39,317 nucleotides of DNA, from assembly GCA_021443665.1 (NCBI GenBank), contig JABUTN010000002.1, positions 100,145 to 139,461 of the forward strand, read 5' to 3'. The number at the start of each line of letters is the position of its first letter. Position 1 is the stretch's first letter. Shown piece after piece: positions 20,209 through 28,633 of the stretch. The notes beneath the pieces were generated by a model, which saw nothing but the letters and a program-made list of their open reading frames with translations, was not told the origin of the DNA and ran no database searches. The position numbers were made by a program, and so were the translations under genes. The stretch comes from Bacteroidales bacterium (lineage in GTDB: Bacteria; Bacteroidota; Bacteroidia; Bacteroidales; UBA932).

Positions 20209-21627
20209 GTGAATACACTCAAACAAGAACAGAAACTGAAACTCAGCCAGGGACTTTCCCCTCTCCAGATCCAGACAATCAAGATGTTGGAGTACACCCG
20301 TATGGAGGTGGAACAGAAAATTTTGAAGGAAATCGAGGAAAACCCGGTTCTGGATGAGGTTATCAATGATGAACCCGATGAGGATGGTGTCGTGTCAAAT
20401 GTGTCCTTGAGCGATTATCCGGCCGCTGACCCCACTCCGTCTTACAAATTCATAGTCAACAACCAGGGCAAGGACCTTAAACCCGAATACAACACTTTCG
20501 CCGTCAAGGAGAGTTTCCACCAGAGCCTTATGGACCAGCTCGGTTTCGTGACCAGCCTCAATGACCGCCAGATGGCCATCGCCCGCTTCATTGTCGGCTC
20601 AATCGATGATTCTGGCTATCTTCGCAGGGATTTGCTTTCGCTTTCCGATGATATAGCCTTCCGCCTCAATATTGACGTGACAGAGCAGGAACTTGAGCAG
20701 ATTCTGGGCATAATCCAGCAGTTCGAACCCGCCGGAGTGGGAGCCAGGGATTTGAAGGAGTGCCTCTTGCTTCAGTTGAAAATAAAAGAGGGGACACCAG
20801 CCGTCGAGTGCGCCATAAAGATTCTCGAAGAGCACTTTGAATCCTTTACGAAGAAACATTACGACAAGATTTCAGAGAGGATGGGAATCAGCGAGCAGGA
20901 ACTGAAGGAAGCGATTGGGGAGATTCTGAAACTCAATCCCCGCCCCGGCGGACAGATAGACGATTCCTACACGGACCAGGCCCAGCAGGTGGTGCCGGAC
21001 TTCATCGTGGAAAACAAGGACGGGGAACTTGTGCTCGAGATGCCGCGCCTCAATGTGCCGGAACTGCGTATCAACAGTCGTTACGATGAACTGCTGCGTG
21101 ACAAGTCATCTTCCAAGTCACGTGAGGACAGGGAGGTGGCATCGTTCATCAAACACAAGATAGACACGGCCAAGTGGTTTGTGGAGGCTATAAAGCAGCG
21201 CCAGAACACGCTCCGCAACACGATGCAGGCCATAATGGAATACCAACACGATTTCTTTGTCACCGGGGAGGAAACATCACTCCGTCCTATGGTGCTGAGG
21301 AATATTGCCGAAAAGACCAATCTGGACATCTCCACCATCTCCAGGGTTGTGAACAGCAAGTATGTCCAGACCCCCTTCGGGGTGATGTCGCTCAAGTTCT
21401 TCTTCTCAGAGGGACTTACGAACGAAAGCGGGGAAGAGGTGTCCACCCGTGAAATCAAAAAGGTCCTCAGCGACAGTATCGAGGCTGAGGACAAATCAAA
21501 ACCCCTGACGGATGATGAGCTTGTAAAACTTTTGTCCGCCAAGGGTTATAAGGTCGCGAGACGTACTGTCGCCAAATACCGCGATCAGATGAATATCCCC
21601 ATCGCAAGGCTGCGACGGGAAATCTAA
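20209..21627 (+). CDS. rpoN: RNA polymerase sigma-54 factor
   Basis: Alternative sigma factor that needs AAA+ activators and reads -24/-12 promoters. The 472-residue product starts with GTG. Region I is visible (LKLSQGLSPLQIQTIKMLEY, then IEENPVLDE), followed by an acidic region II, the core-binding domain, and the C-terminal RpoN box ARRTVAKYR at about 450-458, which is intact. It lies 4 bp after miaB and probably shares its promoter. No enhancer-binding activator or obvious GG-N10-GC promoter pair was noticed nearby. It converges on galM with 7 bp between stops. Confidence 0.96.
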   Translation: MNTLKQEQKLKLSQGLSPLQIQTIKMLEYTRMEVEQKILKEIEENPVLDEVINDEPDEDGVVSNVSLSDYPAADPTPSYKFIVNNQGKDLKPEYNTFAVKESFHQSLMDQLGFVTSLNDRQMAIARFIVGSIDDSGYLRRDLLSLSDDIAFRLNIDVTEQELEQILGIIQQFEPAGVGARDLKECLLLQLKIKEGTPAVECAIKILEEHFESFTKKHYDKISERMGISEQELKEAIGEILKLNPRPGGQIDDSYTDQAQQVVPDFIVENKDGELVLEMPRLNVPELRINSRYDELLRDKSSSKSREDREVASFIKHKIDTAKWFVEAIKQRQNTLRNTMQAIMEYQHDFFVTGEETSLRPMVLRNIAEKTNLDISTISRVVNSKYVQTPFGVMSLKFFFSEGLTNESGEEVSTREIKKVLSDSIEAEDKSKPLTDDELVKLLSAKGYKVARRTVAKYRDQMNIPIARLRREI

Positions 21628-21634
21628 TCACTTA

Positions 21635-22933
21635 TTATTTCTCGCATTTGTCACAGGGCTTGTCATCACAAGCCTTTTTCCCGTCTTTGCAGCAATCTCC
21701 GTGCTTTTCACCGCAGTCGTGTTTTTCGCCGCATTTCTTGCCGTCCTTGCACTCGTGCTTCTCACCGCAGTTCTTGTCGCCTTTGCATTTGTCGCAAACG
21801 GAGAACTTGAAGACAGCGTTGTGGGTGTAGGTCTCGCCGGGACGGAGAATGGTGTTGGGGAAGTTGGCGTGGTTGGGAGCATCGGGGAAGTCCTGGGTCT
21901 CAAGCGCCACTCCGCTGAAACGGTGGAATATCTGGCCTCTCTTGCCCACATCCTTTCCGTTCATTGCAGGGCCTGAATAGAACTGGATGCCTGGTTTGTC
22001 TGTGAACACTTCGAGTTTGATGCCTGTTTCGGGCTCAGCCATAACTGCCGCAAGGGCATATTTGCCGCATTCTGACTTGCAGCACTGCTTGCCCTGGGTG
22101 CCGAGCACGAAGTTGAGGTCATAACCTTCCTCTTTGGCGCGTGAACCGATTTCGGTGGGCTGGCGGAAGTCGTTTACAGTGCCTTCAACGCTCTGTATCT
22201 CACCCGTGGGGATGAGGCCGGGGCCGCAGGGGGTGAAGCCGTCGGCGGGAATCATCAACTTGTGGGAGTTGGAACTCTTCTCGGTGGTGCCGTGGAGGTT
22301 GAGATAGGGGTGGAATGTCAGGTTGACGGGAGTGGCCTTGTCGGTTACGGCCTTGTAATTGATCACAAGGGCATTGTCCTTGGTGAGGGTGTAGGTCACC
22401 CAGGCCTCGAGATTGCCGGGGAAGCCCTGGTCTCCGTCGGGGGAGAGGATATGAAACTCCATTACAGGCTCGCCTTTCTCGTTGATGCCGGTTTTGCCGT
22501 CCCAAACGCAAGCATAGTAGCCTTTGGGGCCGCCGTGAAGCTGGTTGGGGCCTTCGTTGGTGACAACATTGTACTCAACGCCGTCAATGCTGAATTTGCC
22601 CTCGGCAATGCGGTTGGCAAAACGGCCTACAACCGGACCGGCGAAATGGTCCTGGCTGTTGAGGTAGCCGTCGATGGAGTCGAAACCCCAGATGACGTCC
22701 TTGTACTCCCCGTTGCGGTCGGGAACGATGAGCGAGGTCATACGCGCACCGTAGTTGGTGAACTGCACGGCCATATTGTCGTTCTCGATGGTGAACAGTT
22801 GTACCTGCTTGCCGTCGATGACCTTCTCGAAGTTGGCGGGGTCAAGTTTGAGGGCTGAATAGTCGGATTTCTTGTTGCAGCAGCAGGATGCGAGGGTGAC
22901 AATCGCTGCAAGTGCGATAAAGGTTTTTTTCAT
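21635..22933 (-). CDS. galM: Aldose 1-epimerase lipoprotein with Cys-rich C-terminal tail
   Basis: Galactose-mutarotase-fold enzyme, 432 residues, exported and probably lipidated: lipobox LASC, with three consecutive cysteines 17-19. The catalytic body (about 40-378) keeps His133 (QLHGGP), His208 (NLTFHPYLNL) and Glu345 (ALETQDFPDAPN), equivalent to the His-His-Glu set of known mutarotases. A cysteine-bearing loop, KQCCKSEC, occurs at 282-289. The last 54 residues (379-432; bases 21638-21799) form a tail with 11 cysteines and three EKH units, built from near-repeats of CGEKH and CKDGKK. It resembles a metallothionein-like or metal-binding low-complexity segment and is not part of the normal family. 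The gene follows araD by 9 bp in the arabinose cluster, so the enzyme probably interconverts sugar anomers outside the inner membrane. Confidence 0.9.
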   Translation of the reverse strand: MKKTFIALAAIVTLASCCCNKKSDYSALKLDPANFEKVIDGKQVQLFTIENDNMAVQFTNYGARMTSLIVPDRNGEYKDVIWGFDSIDGYLNSQDHFAGPVVGRFANRIAEGKFSIDGVEYNVVTNEGPNQLHGGPKGYYACVWDGKTGINEKGEPVMEFHILSPDGDQGFPGNLEAWVTYTLTKDNALVINYKAVTDKATPVNLTFHPYLNLHGTTEKSSNSHKLMIPADGFTPCGPGLIPTGEIQSVEGTVNDFRQPTEIGSRAKEEGYDLNFVLGTQGKQCCKSECGKYALAAVMAEPETGIKLEVFTDKPGIQFYSGPAMNGKDVGKRGQIFHRFSGVALETQDFPDAPNHANFPNTILRPGETYTHNAVFKFSVCDKCKGDKNCGEKHECKDGKKCGEKHDCGEKHGDCCKDGKKACDDKPCDKCEK

Positions 22934-22942
22934 GGGATGAGT

Positions 22943-23641
22943 CTATTTTTTTGTTTGGCCGTAGTAGGCGTTGGGCCCGTGTTTGCGTGAGAAATGCTTT
23001 TCCACGAGCAGGGGGTTCATTTTGAGGGAAGGGTTGACGCTGTAGGCGATGAAGGCCATCTTGGCAACCTGTTCGAGCACCACCGAATTCATCACGGCCT
23101 GCTCGGGGCTTTCGCCCCAGGTGAAGGGACCGTGACCCTTGACAAGCACGGCAGCCGTGTGGTCGGGGTCGATGTTGAGTTCCTTGAAACGGCGTACAAT
23201 CACATTGCCGGTTTCAAGCTCATAGTTGCCCATCACCTCCTGCTCCGTCATATCCTCCGTGCAGGGGATGTCGTGGTGGAAGTGGTCGGCGTGGGTGGTG
23301 CCTATATTGGGGATGTCAATGCCTGCCTGAGCCCATCCTGTAGCGTATGTGGAGTGGGTGTGAACCACGCCTCCGACATTGGGGAAGGCTTTGTAGATGG
23401 CGATGTGGGTGGGAGTGTCGGATGAGGGTTTGAGATTGCCTTCAACGATGTTCCCGTCCAGGTCCACCACCACCATGTGCTCGGGGTAGAGGTGGTCGTA
23501 GTTGACTCCCGAGGGTTTGATGACCACCAGTCCGCTCTTGCGGTCAATGGCGGAGACATTGCCCCAGGTGAAGATGACCAGTCCGTGGCGTACAAGCTCG
23601 AGATTGGCCTGACATACTCTTTGTTTTAATTGCTCTAACAT
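22943..23641 (-). CDS. araD: L-ribulose-5-phosphate 4-epimerase
   Basis: Class II aldolase-fold, zinc-dependent enzyme that converts L-ribulose 5-phosphate to D-xylulose 5-phosphate, the last step of arabinose catabolism. The 232-residue product tracks E. coli AraD closely by eye: [38 protein letters not shown], the metal-ligand histidines in VVHTHS and the catalytic-side [13 protein letters not shown], then KGHGPFTWG and [11 protein letters not shown]. It follows the symporter gene by 12 bp and precedes galM. Confidence 0.96.
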
Positions 23642-23653
23642 ATCCGATTGATT

Positions 23654-25360
23654 TTACCAGAAGTAAATATAGAATGCGACTGTAAGGCCGAGGATGACAG
23701 CAGAGTGGAAGATGTCCCATTTGTTCCAGCTTCGGCGGGTGGCCTCTTTCTGCTCGGGGGTGGCTGTGCTGAACACGAGACCCTTGAGTTCTTCCTCGCT
23801 CTTGGGCTTGGTGCAAAGGCTGACAACGACGCAGACTATGAGGCAGAATGCAAGCATCCAGACACAGAAGAACAGCCAGTTGTAGTCATAGAACACTGAG
23901 CGGAACAGGCTGCTGCCCAAGCTTTCGCCCCAAGATGTTGTGTAGATGATTTTGGCTGCCAGACGGGTGAGCCCTATGACAAGACCGCTGATGAGGGCCC
24001 ACTGTCCTCCCTGAGGTGTGGTGCGTTTCCAGCAGATACCCATAAGGAAGGCGGCTGCGATACCGGGAGCCAGAACGCTCTGAACATCCTGCAGGTAGAG
24101 GTAGAGGACATCTCCGATACCCTTCATGATGGGAATCCAGAGGATGCCGAGAATCACGATGACCACGGTGGCGACACGGCCTACCTTCACAAGTTTCTTC
24201 TCTTCGGTCTCGGGATGGCGGCGCTTATATACGTCAATGGTGTAGAGCATCGCGCTGGAGTTGAACAGTGAGGCGAGGGAACTCATAAGGGCTGCGAGGA
24301 TGCCGCAGACAACGAGTCCCTTCACGCCTGCGGGAAGAAGTTCGCGGACCAGGGTGGGGAAGGCTACGTCACCATTGCCGAGCACCTGGGCGAAACCGGG
24401 GTAGTTCTTGGAGGCAAGGGCGAAGGCAATCATGCCGGGAATCAGGAAGAGGAACACGGGGAGGAGCTTGAAATACGCTCCGAGTATGGTGCCGCGGCGG
24501 GCCTCTTTCTCATTCTTGCCGGAGAGTACGCGCTGCACGATGAACTGGTCGGTACACCAGTACCAGAAACCGATTATGATGGATCCTCCCAGGGCTCCGA
24601 ACCAGGGATAGTTGGGGTCGCCGTTGTTTCGCATAAGCTGGGTCATCTTGTCGCCGTATTCGTTGACGGGAGTGGCTCCGCAGATCTCCATCATCTGCTG
24701 CCATCCGCTGCCCTCACCCATTCCGGACAGGGCTTTGAATCCAAGGTAAAGGATGAACAGCGAGCCGAGCAGGAGGATGGGGGTCTGAAGCACGGAAGTC
24801 TTCAGAACGCTCTCCATACCGCCGACAACTGTATATAGCGCGGTGATGAGCACGAGACCTATGGCTGCAATCCAGAAGAAGTCGATGTCAGTGCCGAACC
24901 AGTGCACGCTGTCGATGCCGAATACCTGCTGGAACACCAGACCGCCGGCATATACTGTCACGCTGACCTTGGTGAGCACATAGCTGATCAGGGAAATGTA
25001 GGTGAGGATGGAACGTGAGGTCTTGTTGTAGCGTCTCTCGAGGAACTCGGGCATCGTATATACCATTGAGCGCTCATAGAAGGGGACAAACACCCATCCG
25101 AGCACGAGAATCATCCAGCCCTGGAACTCCCAATGGGCCATTGCCATACCGCTTGAGGCGCCTGCGCCCGCCAGACCGATGAGGTGCTCACTGCCGATGT
25201 TGGATGCGAAAATGGACGCGCCTATCGCGATCCAAGTCGCGTCACGTCCGCTGAGAAAATAGTCGGAGGAACTGTTCTGTTTCTTCTTCATCACACTATA
25301 AACAATCCAGATCATAGCGCAGACGAACAATCCGATGACTAACCAGTCTAATGTTGCCAT
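23654..25360 (-). CDS. SSS-family sodium:sugar symporter, probably for arabinose
   Basis: Integral membrane transporter of 568 residues with about 14 helices. SGLT-type landmarks: SSSDYFLSGRDATWIAIGASIFASNIGSEHLIGLAG (residues about 30-65, only partly quoted), GMAMAHWEFQGW, YNKTSRSILTYISLISYVLTK and TALYTVVGGMESVLKTSVLQ. The substrate is inferred from context: the gene heads symporter-araD-galM and is divergent from araA-araB, so L-arabinose import is most likely; xylose or galactose cannot be ruled out. A -7-like element lies 41 nt upstream. Confidence 0.9.
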   Translation of the reverse strand: MATLDWLVIGLFVCAMIWIVYSVMKKKQNSSSDYFLSGRDATWIAIGASIFASNIGSEHLIGLAGAGASSGMAMAHWEFQGWMILVLGWVFVPFYERSMVYTMPEFLERRYNKTSRSILTYISLISYVLTKVSVTVYAGGLVFQQVFGIDSVHWFGTDIDFFWIAAIGLVLITALYTVVGGMESVLKTSVLQTPILLLGSLFILYLGFKALSGMGEGSGWQQMMEICGATPVNEYGDKMTQLMRNNGDPNYPWFGALGGSIIIGFWYWCTDQFIVQRVLSGKNEKEARRGTILGAYFKLLPVFLFLIPGMIAFALASKNYPGFAQVLGNGDVAFPTLVRELLPAGVKGLVVCGILAALMSSLASLFNSSAMLYTIDVYKRRHPETEEKKLVKVGRVATVVIVILGILWIPIMKGIGDVLYLYLQDVQSVLAPGIAAAFLMGICWKRTTPQGGQWALISGLVIGLTRLAAKIIYTTSWGESLGSSLFRSVFYDYNWLFFCVWMLAFCLIVCVVVSLCTKPKSEEELKGLVFSTATPEQKEATRRSWNKWDIFHSAVILGLTVAFYIYFW

Positions 25361-25462: not shown

Positions 25463-26971
25463 ATGATTTATAACGATTACCAAGTCTGGTTCGTAACCGG
25501 AGCGCAGCTCCTTTACGGTGGCGATGCAGTCATCGCCGTAGATGCCCATTCCAATGAAATGGTCAAAGGCCTCAATGACTCCGGCCGCCTTCCCGTCCCC
25601 GTTGTCTATAAGGGCACCGTCAATTCGGAAAAAGAGGTGACTGAGTGCTTCCGCGCAGCCAACAATGACCCCAACTGTATCGGAGTTATCACCTGGATGC
25701 ACACTTTCAGCCCCGCCAAGATGTGGATTCACGGTCTGCAGCTGCTGAAAAAGCCCCTCCTGCATTTCCACACCCAGTTCAACAAGGAGATTCCCTGGGA
25801 TACGATGGATATGGATTTCATGAACCTCAACCAGAGTGCCCACGGCGACCGTGAGTTCGGACATATCTGCGCCCGTCTTCGCAAGCCCCGCAAGGTGGTC
25901 GTAGGCCATTGGCAGGATCCCGCAGCCCAGGCCAAGATTGCAGTGTGGATGAGGGTTTGTGCCGGTTGGGCCGATGCTCAGGATATGCTGATTCTCCGTT
26001 TCGGCGACCAGATGAACAATGTGGCCGTGACGGACGGCGACAAGGTGGAGGCGGAGATGAGGCTCGGCTACCACGTGGACTACTGCCCTGTGAGCGACCT
26101 TATGAAATATTACAATTCTGTCAAGGAGACTGACGTTCTCGCCCTCGTGGCCGAGTATTTCGCCACCTACGACCACGATGCGGCCCTCGAAGTGGTTGGT
26201 AGCGACGCATACGTGAAGGTGTACAACTCAGCCCGTGCCGAACTTGCCCTGCGCGGCATCCTGAAGGACAAGGGCGCCAAGGCCTTCACCACCAACTTCG
26301 ACGACCTCGGTGATATGGACCAGATTCCCGGTCTGGCAAGCCAGCGCCTGATGGCGGAAGGCTACGGCTTCGGTGCCGAAGGCGACTGGAAGACCGCAGC
26401 ACTCTACCGCACATTCTGGGTGATGGGCAAGGGACTCCCCAAAGGCTGTTCCTTCCTCGAGGACTACACCCTCAACTTCGCGGGCGAGCGCAGCGCCATC
26501 CTTCAGGCCCACATGCTTGAGGTCTGCCCTCTGATTGCGGCGCAGAAACCCCGCCTCGAACTGAACTTCCTCGGCATTGGCGTATGCAAGAGCCAGACTG
26601 CCCGTCTAGTGTTCACAAGCAAGCCCGGCGACGGCGTTGCAGCCACCGTGGTCGATATGGGCGGCCGTTTCCGTATGATTGCCAACGAGGTTGAGTGCAT
26701 CGAGAGCAAACCCCTGCCCAACCTGCACGTTGCTTCCGCTCTCTGGATTCCCAAGCCCAACTTCGAGGTTGGCGCCGGCGGATGGATTCTGGCGGGCGGC
26801 ACCCACCACACAGCCTTCTCCTACGACCTTGACGTAGAGTATCTGAAGGACTATGCCGAGATTGCCGACATCGAACTTGTCATCATCGGAAAGGACTCAA
26901 CCATCGATACCATCAAGCAGGATCTGCGCAACGGCGAGATTTATTATATGCTCAACAAGGCCCTCAAGTAA
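25463..26971 (+). CDS. araA: L-arabinose isomerase
   Basis: Manganese-dependent isomerase of L-arabinose to L-ribulose. The 502-residue product aligns by eye along its length with E. coli AraA: YQVWFVTGAQLLYG at the start, HTFSPAKMWIHGL, PLLHFHTQFNKEIPWDTMDMDFMNLNQSAHG (quoted in part elsewhere by position 100-127), VAVTDGDKV. The metal and catalytic residues fall at the same numbers as in E. coli: Glu306, Glu333, His350 and His449. It is the first gene of araA-araB, rightward from the divergent control region. Confidence 0.97.
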   Translation: MIYNDYQVWFVTGAQLLYGGDAVIAVDAHSNEMVKGLNDSGRLPVPVVYKGTVNSEKEVTECFRAANNDPNCIGVITWMHTFSPAKMWIHGLQLLKKPLLHFHTQFNKEIPWDTMDMDFMNLNQSAHGDREFGHICARLRKPRKVVVGHWQDPAAQAKIAVWMRVCAGWADAQDMLILRFGDQMNNVAVTDGDKVEAEMRLGYHVDYCPVSDLMKYYNSVKETDVLALVAEYFATYDHDAALEVVGSDAYVKVYNSARAELALRGILKDKGAKAFTTNFDDLGDMDQIPGLASQRLMAEGYGFGAEGDWKTAALYRTFWVMGKGLPKGCSFLEDYTLNFAGERSAILQAHMLEVCPLIAAQKPRLELNFLGIGVCKSQTARLVFTSKPGDGVAATVVDMGGRFRMIANEVECIESKPLPNLHVASALWIPKPNFEVGAGGWILAGGTHHTAFSYDLDVEYLKDYAEIADIELVIIGKDSTIDTIKQDLRNGEIYYMLNKALK

Positions 26972-26977
26972 AAAGAT

Positions 26978-28633
26978 ATGGATAAATACGTTATAGGACT
27001 TGACTACGGCAGCGACTCGGCCCGCGCCGTGGTGGTCAACACCCGTACAGGAGAAACCCTTGCCACCTCAGTCTGCTACTATCCCCGCTGGAAACAGGGA
27101 CTGTATTGCAATCCTGCCCGCAACCAGTACCGCCAGCATCCCCAGGACTACATAGACGTTCTGATTCATACCGTCCGCGAGAGCATAGCCGCCTGCCCCG
27201 AAGGCACCGCCGCCAATGTCGTCGGCATCGCCTTCGACACCACCGGCAGCACGCCCTGCTTCTGCGACAGGACCGGCACACCCCTGGCCATGCTGCCCGG
27301 CTTTGAGGAAAATCCCAATGCAATGTTCGTGTTGTGGAAAGACCATACGGCCGTGGATGAGGCCGCCCGGATCAACGAACTTTGCAAAAAGTGGGAAATC
27401 GACTATTCACAGTACGAGGGAGGCATTTATTCTTCCGAATGGTTTTGGGCAAAAGCCCTGCATGTGCTACGCGAGGATGCAGTTGTACGCGAGAACGCAT
27501 ACAGCATAGTCGAACACTGCGAGTGGATGCCCGCCCTGCTGACAGGAGTGGATGATGTCCACAAACTCATCCGCAGCCGCTGCGCCGAAGGACACAAGGC
27601 AATGTGGCATCCTTCTTGGGACGGTCTGCCTTCAGAGAAGTTCCTCGTGGCCCTCGACCCCGTGCTTGCCGGTTTCAGGGAGCGTCTCTTCAAGGATACT
27701 TTCACCGCTGACAAACCCGTTGGTCGCCTTACACCCGAATGGGCCGGCAAACTCGGGCTCAGCACGGATGTTGTCGTCGCCGGAGGCGCCTTTGACTGCC
27801 ACTTCGGAGCTGTGGGTGCCAACATCAGCCCCAGGACCTTCGTCCGCGTGATAGGCACTTCCACCTGCGACATTATGGTCAGCCCCTACGATGAGATTGG
27901 TGACAAACTTATTCACGGCATCTGCGGCCAGGTGGACGGCTCCGTGATTCCCGGTATGGTCGGCCTTGAGGCCGGACAGTCTTCGTTCGGAGATGTGTAT
28001 GCCTGGTTCAAGAGGCTGATCTGCGAGCCCGCCGCCGCACTGATTTCAAAATCGGAGTCAGTCAGCGAGGAGCAGAAGAAGGCGCTTGTGGCCGAACTCG
28101 AGGACAAGATGATAGTCGAACTTACCAAGCAGGCCGAAAAGATAGCCCCCGAGGACAGCGCTGTTCTCGCCACGGACTGGTTCAACGGCCGCCGTACGCC
28201 TGATGCCGACCAGAGAGTGAAGGCCACCATCACCGGCCTGACCCTCGGATCCACAGCCCCTATGGTGTTCCGCGCCCTTGTCGAGGCCACTGCCTACGGC
28301 TCACGCGCCATCGTGGAGCGTTTCCTGAACGAGGGTGTGAAGATAGAGCAGGTTATAGGCATCGGAGGCATTGCCCTAAAGTCGCCTTTCGTGATGCAGA
28401 CCCTTTCAGATGTACTGGGGATGCCCATAAAGGTTTGCCGTACCGACCAGGCCTGCGCCCTTGGAGCTGCTATGTTCGCGGCCACTGCCGCTGGAATCTA
28501 TCCCAATGTGGAAGAGGCACAGAAGGCGATGAACTCAGGCTTTGCCCATGAGTACCAGCCCATACCCGCAAATGTGGAGCGCTACAATGTACTGTACAAA
28601 CAGTATATAGACCTTGCCCGCAAGACGGAGTAA
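26978..28633 (+). CDS. araB: Ribulokinase
   Basis: FGGY-family kinase that phosphorylates L-ribulose to L-ribulose 5-phosphate. The 551-residue product has the N-terminal phosphate-1 motif GLDYGSDSARAVVVN, the AraB-specific DTTGSTPCF, LWKDHTAVDEA, VAGGAFDCHFGAVGANI and the C-terminal GGIALKSPFVMQTLSDVLG adenosine motif. Length matches AraB (about 550) rather than xylulokinase (about 500). It follows araA by 6 bp and is closed by the hairpin at 28654-28692. Confidence 0.96.
   Translation: MDKYVIGLDYGSDSARAVVVNTRTGETLATSVCYYPRWKQGLYCNPARNQYRQHPQDYIDVLIHTVRESIAACPEGTAANVVGIAFDTTGSTPCFCDRTGTPLAMLPGFEENPNAMFVLWKDHTAVDEAARINELCKKWEIDYSQYEGGIYSSEWFWAKALHVLREDAVVRENAYSIVEHCEWMPALLTGVDDVHKLIRSRCAEGHKAMWHPSWDGLPSEKFLVALDPVLAGFRERLFKDTFTADKPVGRLTPEWAGKLGLSTDVVVAGGAFDCHFGAVGANISPRTFVRVIGTSTCDIMVSPYDEIGDKLIHGICGQVDGSVIPGMVGLEAGQSSFGDVYAWFKRLICEPAAALISKSESVSEEQKKALVAELEDKMIVELTKQAEKIAPEDSAVLATDWFNGRRTPDADQRVKATITGLTLGSTAPMVFRALVEATAYGSRAIVERFLNEGVKIEQVIGIGGIALKSPFVMQTLSDVLGMPIKVCRTDQACALGAAMFAATAAGIYPNVEEAQKAMNSGFAHEYQPIPANVERYNVLYKQYIDLARKTE

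Follow-up and report, generated by a model that had tools for sequence, protein, structure and literature searches.

What is a cysteine-rich tail doing on a sugar enzyme? The question is raised by a GalM-like gene in the 39,317 nt stretch of Bacteroidales DNA analysed here (the window), whose product continues for 53 residues after the end of its mutarotase body. A preliminary description made from the sequence had noted a tail with 11 Cys and 3 His behind a normal body, and this was borne out, with the body ending near residue 379. The relevant features are as follows.

21635-22933, minus strand: predicted lipoprotein of galM/araM-like aldose 1-epimerase type, 432 aa with its tail (ORF, Pfam, NCBIfam, alignment with 1snz)
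21638-21796, minus strand: Cys-rich tail, residues 380-432, with 11 Cys, 3 His, 28% Lys and no aromatic residue
21700-21771, minus strand: three 18-nt near-repeats encoding xCGEKH
21797-22933, minus strand: residues 1-379, comprising signal peptide and mutarotase body (Pfam, 1snz, alignment of 99 GalMs)
22067-22084, minus strand: CCKSEC, residues 284-289 (Cys 284, 285, 289), in a loop inserted directly behind the D272 strand
22877-22885, minus strand: Cys 17-19 at the predicted lipobox LASCCC (ORF, Cys positions)
22943-23641, minus strand: araD-like L-ribulose-5-phosphate 4-epimerase gene (position and sequence)
23654-25360, minus strand: transporter of the sodium/solute symporter family in the araP position (ORF, gene order)
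25463-28633, plus strand: araA-like and araB-like genes, divergent from araP-araD-galM (sequence and the operon of PMC4666351)

The mutarotase body and its locus

Pfam Aldose_epim (PF01263) covers residues 46-375 with 287 bits against a cut-off of 27 (E 2e-85), while the galM_Leloir equivalog TIGR02636 scores 298 bits and stays under its curated cut-off of 397.65. The human GALM chain 1snz aligns with residues 40-379 and ends at residue 379. R104, H133, H208, D272 and E345 are aligned with human R82, H107, H176, D243 and E307, which we take to be the catalytic and binding residues. In an alignment of 99 GalMs these five columns vary hardly or not at all, and the body presumably retains mutarotase activity.

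In the Bacteroides araMPRDAB operon AraM is termed a periplasmic L-arabinose mutarotase (PMC4666351). The window galM likewise lies with araP, araD, araA and araB, the location that marks AraM, and the order araP-araD-galM is shared with the orthologues in L011 and L014. The protein thus has the whole catalytic body, the catalytic residues, the predicted export and the ara neighbours in common with GalM/AraM. Known members stop at the last strand; the window protein differs from them by its 53-aa Cys-rich tail and by an inserted loop that bears Cys. The earlier proposal of a sugar enzyme turned into a metal scavenger is overstated, as the catalytic residues are intact and the gene belongs to an L-arabinose locus.

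At its other side the gene meets a convergent rpoN-like gene (20209-21627). The two stop codons are only 7 bases apart (21620-21640 of the window), leaving almost no space for a terminator.

The tail is in frame and built from short repeats

Codons 21638-21799 encode V379-K432, and residues 380-432 read CDKCKGDKNCGEKHECKDGKKCGEKHDCGEKHGDCCKDGKKACDDKPCDKCEK. Cys occupies positions 380, 383, 389, 395, 401, 407, 414, 415, 422, 427 and 430, His positions 393, 405 and 411. The composition is 21% Cys, 28% Lys and 26% Asp plus Glu, with no Ile, Leu, Val or Met. In 34 neighbouring genes Cys makes up only 1.62% of residues, and no 53-aa stretch of theirs exceeds 5 Cys, a number reached in a zinc-ribbon-like stretch. 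The binomial probability of at least 11 Cys in a 53-aa tail is 8e-10.

An assembly frameshift, named in the preliminary description as a possible source of the tail, was considered and rejected: frame 0 runs unbroken from the body into the tail, GC3 is similar (0.66 in the tail versus 0.74 in the body), and such tails recur on other GalMs. Stops are present in another frame across the tail. These data confirm a genuine, in-frame tail whose Cys content is far from what chance would produce.

The tail contains CGEKH three times and CKDGKK twice, and DNA near-repeats of 17-18 nt match these units as previously described. Near-repetition at both the peptide and the DNA level supports the idea that the tail grew by short duplications. 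The copies of each unit differ at synonymous sites only, which speaks for selection, though less strongly than the long arrays described below, since the units were picked as identical peptides. An AlphaFold model from a two-row alignment gave a pLDDT of 35.6 and no usable fold.

Cysteine-rich tails recur on GalMs of the order

Searches with the tail alone and with the full-length protein, as suggested in the preliminary description, gave very different results. The tail alone yielded nothing believable. It matched no entry of Pfam or NCBIfam, none of Pfam even at E≤1 (DUF2282 included), no plasmid or phage, and nothing in 393 genomes of the order at E≤0.01. Two outer surface protein C matches in the PDB (E 0.8-0.9) and one weak match with three stops in 200 genomes of the family were judged to be chance. 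Such negatives are misleading because the GalM tails share character rather than sequence. Other tailed GalMs came to light by an order-wide search with the whole protein followed by inspection of the C-termini of the GalM homologues.

The nearest orthologues (~61% identical) are tailless, FSTK or FSVK at the last strand being their final residues. In five genomes of the window's family (G004, G084, G182, G195, G235) the GalM homologues lie within open frames of 740-990 aa, probably as fusions with another enzyme; inspection of the long-frame GalMs of the family revealed no hidden tails. Within this family the tail was seen in the window species only, among the genomes examined. Its restriction to one strain, which had been named as a finding that would refute the proposal, holds inside the family and fails across the order.

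We collected 106 distinct GalM rows, comprising the homologues that matched the window protein best, two tailed families and the long-frame GalMs of the window's family; this non-random set gives meaningful proportions within families and no estimate of the frequency in the order. Twenty rows extend at least 20 aa beyond the body, and each of these extensions holds 5 Cys or more. In the remaining 86 at most 8 aa follow the body, none of them Cys; a long Cys-poor C-terminal tail was not found in any of the 106. Overall, the tails are 16-27% Cys and 15-32% Lys, with one aromatic residue among the 20 rows.

In family f108 tails occur in 11 of the 12 GalM-bearing genomes. They are 22-166 aa long with 5-28 Cys and their sequences are unlike that of the window tail, for example 25 units of CDKKxN/CEKAAN/CTKAAN, or repeats of ECKEGACEKKHG, or repeats of CCDKKADCCKEQAD. 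In genus g187 of family f18 tails are found in nine species (CNKECCEKDGNKECCEKENCENK and variants), a tenth GalM match being cut by a contig end. Several genomes are probably metagenome-assembled, and array lengths are only approximate since short-read assembly can collapse repeats; the tail in L073 (f108) holds a run of N and has an uncertain far end. The long arrays show single Cys at an even spacing of 6, and CC pairs occur in other tails. The recurrence of Cys-rich tails on other GalM lipoproteins argues that the tail is functional.

The tailed GalMs reside in different gene settings (named by sequence): ara in the window, kduI-kduD-galM-symporter in much of f108, galM-symporter in f18. 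Hence the tail is not tied to one sugar. Metal-related genes were not seen beside the tailed GalMs; sugar genes were found there instead. Two f108 genomes (G645, L078:1351-3998; G600, L079:352-2733) have tandem GalM genes, of which the lipoprotein copy is tailed and the other tailless.

Origins of the tails and pattern of the arrays

A quick maximum-likelihood tree was built from 99 GalM bodies, tails excluded. The tailed GalMs fall in three separate places and require four changes, three of which are forced by well-supported branches. A single tailed clade was rejected on this quick tree (cost of 425 log-likelihood units, AU p 4e-5). The simplest reading would be that tails were gained three times and lost once (or are simply absent from L081), the tree alone being silent on gain versus loss. 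As relatives appear to have grown different Cys tails at least twice more, the tail is probably useful and not an accident.

The 25-unit array of L108 has Cys in 25 of 25 units and a Lys as the first residue after it, again in 25 of 25. The codons are mixed (TGC 22, TGT 3; AAG 13, AAA 12), and the other four positions of the unit take three or four residues each. Its relative L071 shows the same constancy of Cys and Lys, together with an invariant Ala at the fifth position. TGT and TGC are mixed in all ten long tails. Duplication copies old variants, so that substitution events in the arrays are not countable; nevertheless the pattern looks selected, that is, as expected from selection for Cys and charge and unlike pure slippage. 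The arrays are best read as held for Cys spacing and not for exact sequence.

Cysteines of the body and the lipobox

The preliminary description had pointed to two further Cys clusters, and both are indeed present: the CCKSEC loop and the three Cys at the predicted lipidation site. In the loop after D272 a CC is found in 5 of 15 tailed rows versus 0 of 84 tailless rows, the carriers being the window protein, g187 rows and one f108 row. Mature bodies of tailed GalMs have 5-10 Cys compared to a mean of 2.75. By independent pairs the association of loop CC and tail is not significant (p 0.5, three tailed lineages) and could not become so with only three such lineages. Thus, that the loop CC goes with the tail is suggestive only. 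L094 (G266, f18), which lacks a tail, is sister to the tailed g187 GalMs and adjoins araA; its loop already reads DSCSKCG with two Cys.

The lipobox LASC at residues 14-17 was picked by eye; Pfam LPAM_1 reaches 13.4 bits with a cut-off of 20. Surface-exposed lipoproteins of Bacteroidota have been described as carrying an acidic run after the lipobox Cys. The residues at this site, CCNKKSDYS, include no acidic run, which makes the periplasmic side likelier, and the tailed GalM is probably located there. The cell-surface location assumed previously finds no support in the sequence. A type IX secretion C-terminal sorting domain was not matched in Pfam and NCBIfam scans of the protein.

Similar arrays on other carriers and comparison with known systems

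Two similar arrays were observed in other families of the order. L102:1282-1902 (plus strand) encodes an LTXXQ/Spy-like exported protein (LTXXQ score 22.6 versus a cut-off of 24.3) with a long C-terminal tail of Cys, His and Lys (CDHKHMKDCQKDCQKECDKKQDC...). L105:1495-1821 (minus strand) encodes a stand-alone exported peptide of 108 aa made of CDKAAT-type repeats, flanked by genes for a polyferredoxin-like protein and a sensor histidine kinase. Both resemble the GalM tails in their CDKx-type Cys array and differ in having another carrier or none. Cys arrays are therefore not tied to GalM.

By composition (21% Cys, no aromatics, 53 aa) the tail is metallothionein-like. It resembles SmtA/BmtA (PF02069), MymT and the animal metallothioneins in ~20% Cys, lack of aromatics, a length of ~50 aa and CC/CxxC pairs, with His in addition. 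Eleven is also the number of Cys in the alpha domain of mammalian metallothionein, which holds four metals. Most known metallothioneins are free cytosolic proteins. In contrast, the window tail is exported and fused to an enzyme, consists of irregular Lys-rich repeats and matches none of the described metallothionein profiles in Pfam and NCBIfam.

The preliminary description had also seen a faint likeness to EGKCG-type copper-binding peptides. Cys peptides of this type are modified by MNIO enzymes, and the bufferins, Buf_EGKCG and oxazolins are exported, Cys-rich, copper-buffering peptides, some of them lipoproteins or fused to larger domains (PMC12452194). The resemblance stands. Membership was rejected: the tail has no DUF2282 match and another Cys spacing, and no DUF692/MNIO gene (PF05114) was found in the whole 96%-complete genome, in a search that detected its positive controls. 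The bufferin reading is thereby removed.

Proposed function of the tail and alternatives

The best explanation, held with about equal measures of confidence and doubt, is that the tail buffers soft metals in the periplasm as a metallothionein-like appendage on a presumably active mutarotase of an arabinose locus. The enzyme in the AraM position, predicted to be exported and lipid-anchored, would still interconvert sugar anomers, and its body would export and anchor the protein. The tail would be a flexible, probably unstructured thiol array, built by duplication of short units and maintained for Cys spacing. Its 11 Cys and 3 His may bind Zn(II) or Cu(I) as a local buffer, and exchange between thiols and disulfides might be a secondary role. 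The earlier suggestion of soft-metal binding is hence kept as the likeliest role, on the basis of composition and recurrence. We rank it first because the composition is that of metallothioneins and Cys is constant with free length and order, the latter suggesting capacity rather than a defined structure. Metal binding, the identity of the metal, the periplasmic side and a benefit of the coupling to GalM are what we infer from these observations.

The tail might instead be used for redox chemistry or cross-linking, forming disulfides among its own Cys or with envelope proteins or host mucins, and so act as a thiol buffer or anchor without any metal. The exported protein is rich in Cys, its internal and lipobox Cys could participate, and the Lys, Asp and Glu between the Cys suit a flexible tether. 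Against this, the number of Cys varies freely from 5 to 28, unlike in defined disulfides, and the even 6-spacing of the long arrays and the CC pairs elsewhere fit ligand arrays at least equally well. The 96%-complete genome yielded no VKOR (DsbA/DsbB lay outside this search), which mildly lowers the disulfide reading; we regard the latter as unlikely though worth keeping in mind. Rather improbable is neutral growth, by which slippage made a harmless hydrophilic tail without function. It would account for the short DNA near-repeats of the window tail, for units and lengths that are very different among species and for the tailless nearest orthologues. Yet it predicts some Cys-poor tails and decayed Cys, whereas all 20 of the 20 long extensions, in three separate lineages, are Cys-rich, and all 25 units of one array keep Cys and Lys despite differing synonymous codons.

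Two further readings would give the tail a role in processing or regulation. Being exported, extended at its C-terminus and encoded in a genome of Bacteroidales type, the window GalM could carry a maturation or sorting signal, either a RiPP-like core for a modifying enzyme, for which MNIO enzymes acting on EGKCG-type Cys peptides set a precedent (PMC12452194), or a signal for export or surface anchoring. We consider this very improbable: the genome has no detectable DUF692/MNIO gene, Pfam and NCBIfam give neither a type IX sorting domain nor a RiPP profile match, and the tails are too different between species for one recognition signal. Least probable appears a metal or redox switch, in which the tail would dock on the Cys-bearing loop after D272 and gate the mutarotase. 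Cys pairs occur in that loop in tailed GalMs of f1, of f18 and of one f108 species, but most tailed f108 GalMs have a single loop Cys or none, and the model with its pLDDT of 35.6 offers no usable structure.

Returning to metal buffering by a metallothionein-like appendage, the window tail is one case of a recurrent pattern on ordinary AraM/GalM proteins. The pattern is apparently undescribed; no account of Cys-rich GalM tails was found in the literature outside subscription. In a wider sense, Bacteroidales may possess undescribed, exported and fast-evolving Cys-Lys arrays which serve as periplasmic metal sponges and were repeatedly gained on lipoprotein GalM and Spy-like carriers, such that sugar-regulated expression would set the metal buffering of the envelope. 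This generalization is tentative and we doubt it more than we trust it. Most known metallothioneins are small proteins that occur on their own, and little has been mapped of how the periplasm buffers metals beyond bufferin and methanobactin. If one sugar enzyme has indeed grown Cys arrays at the same end repeatedly and independently, this would constitute a clear natural experiment. The envelope of these anaerobes would then select for cheap, tunable thiol capacity, and gut bacteria may couple sugar uptake to metal or redox stress.
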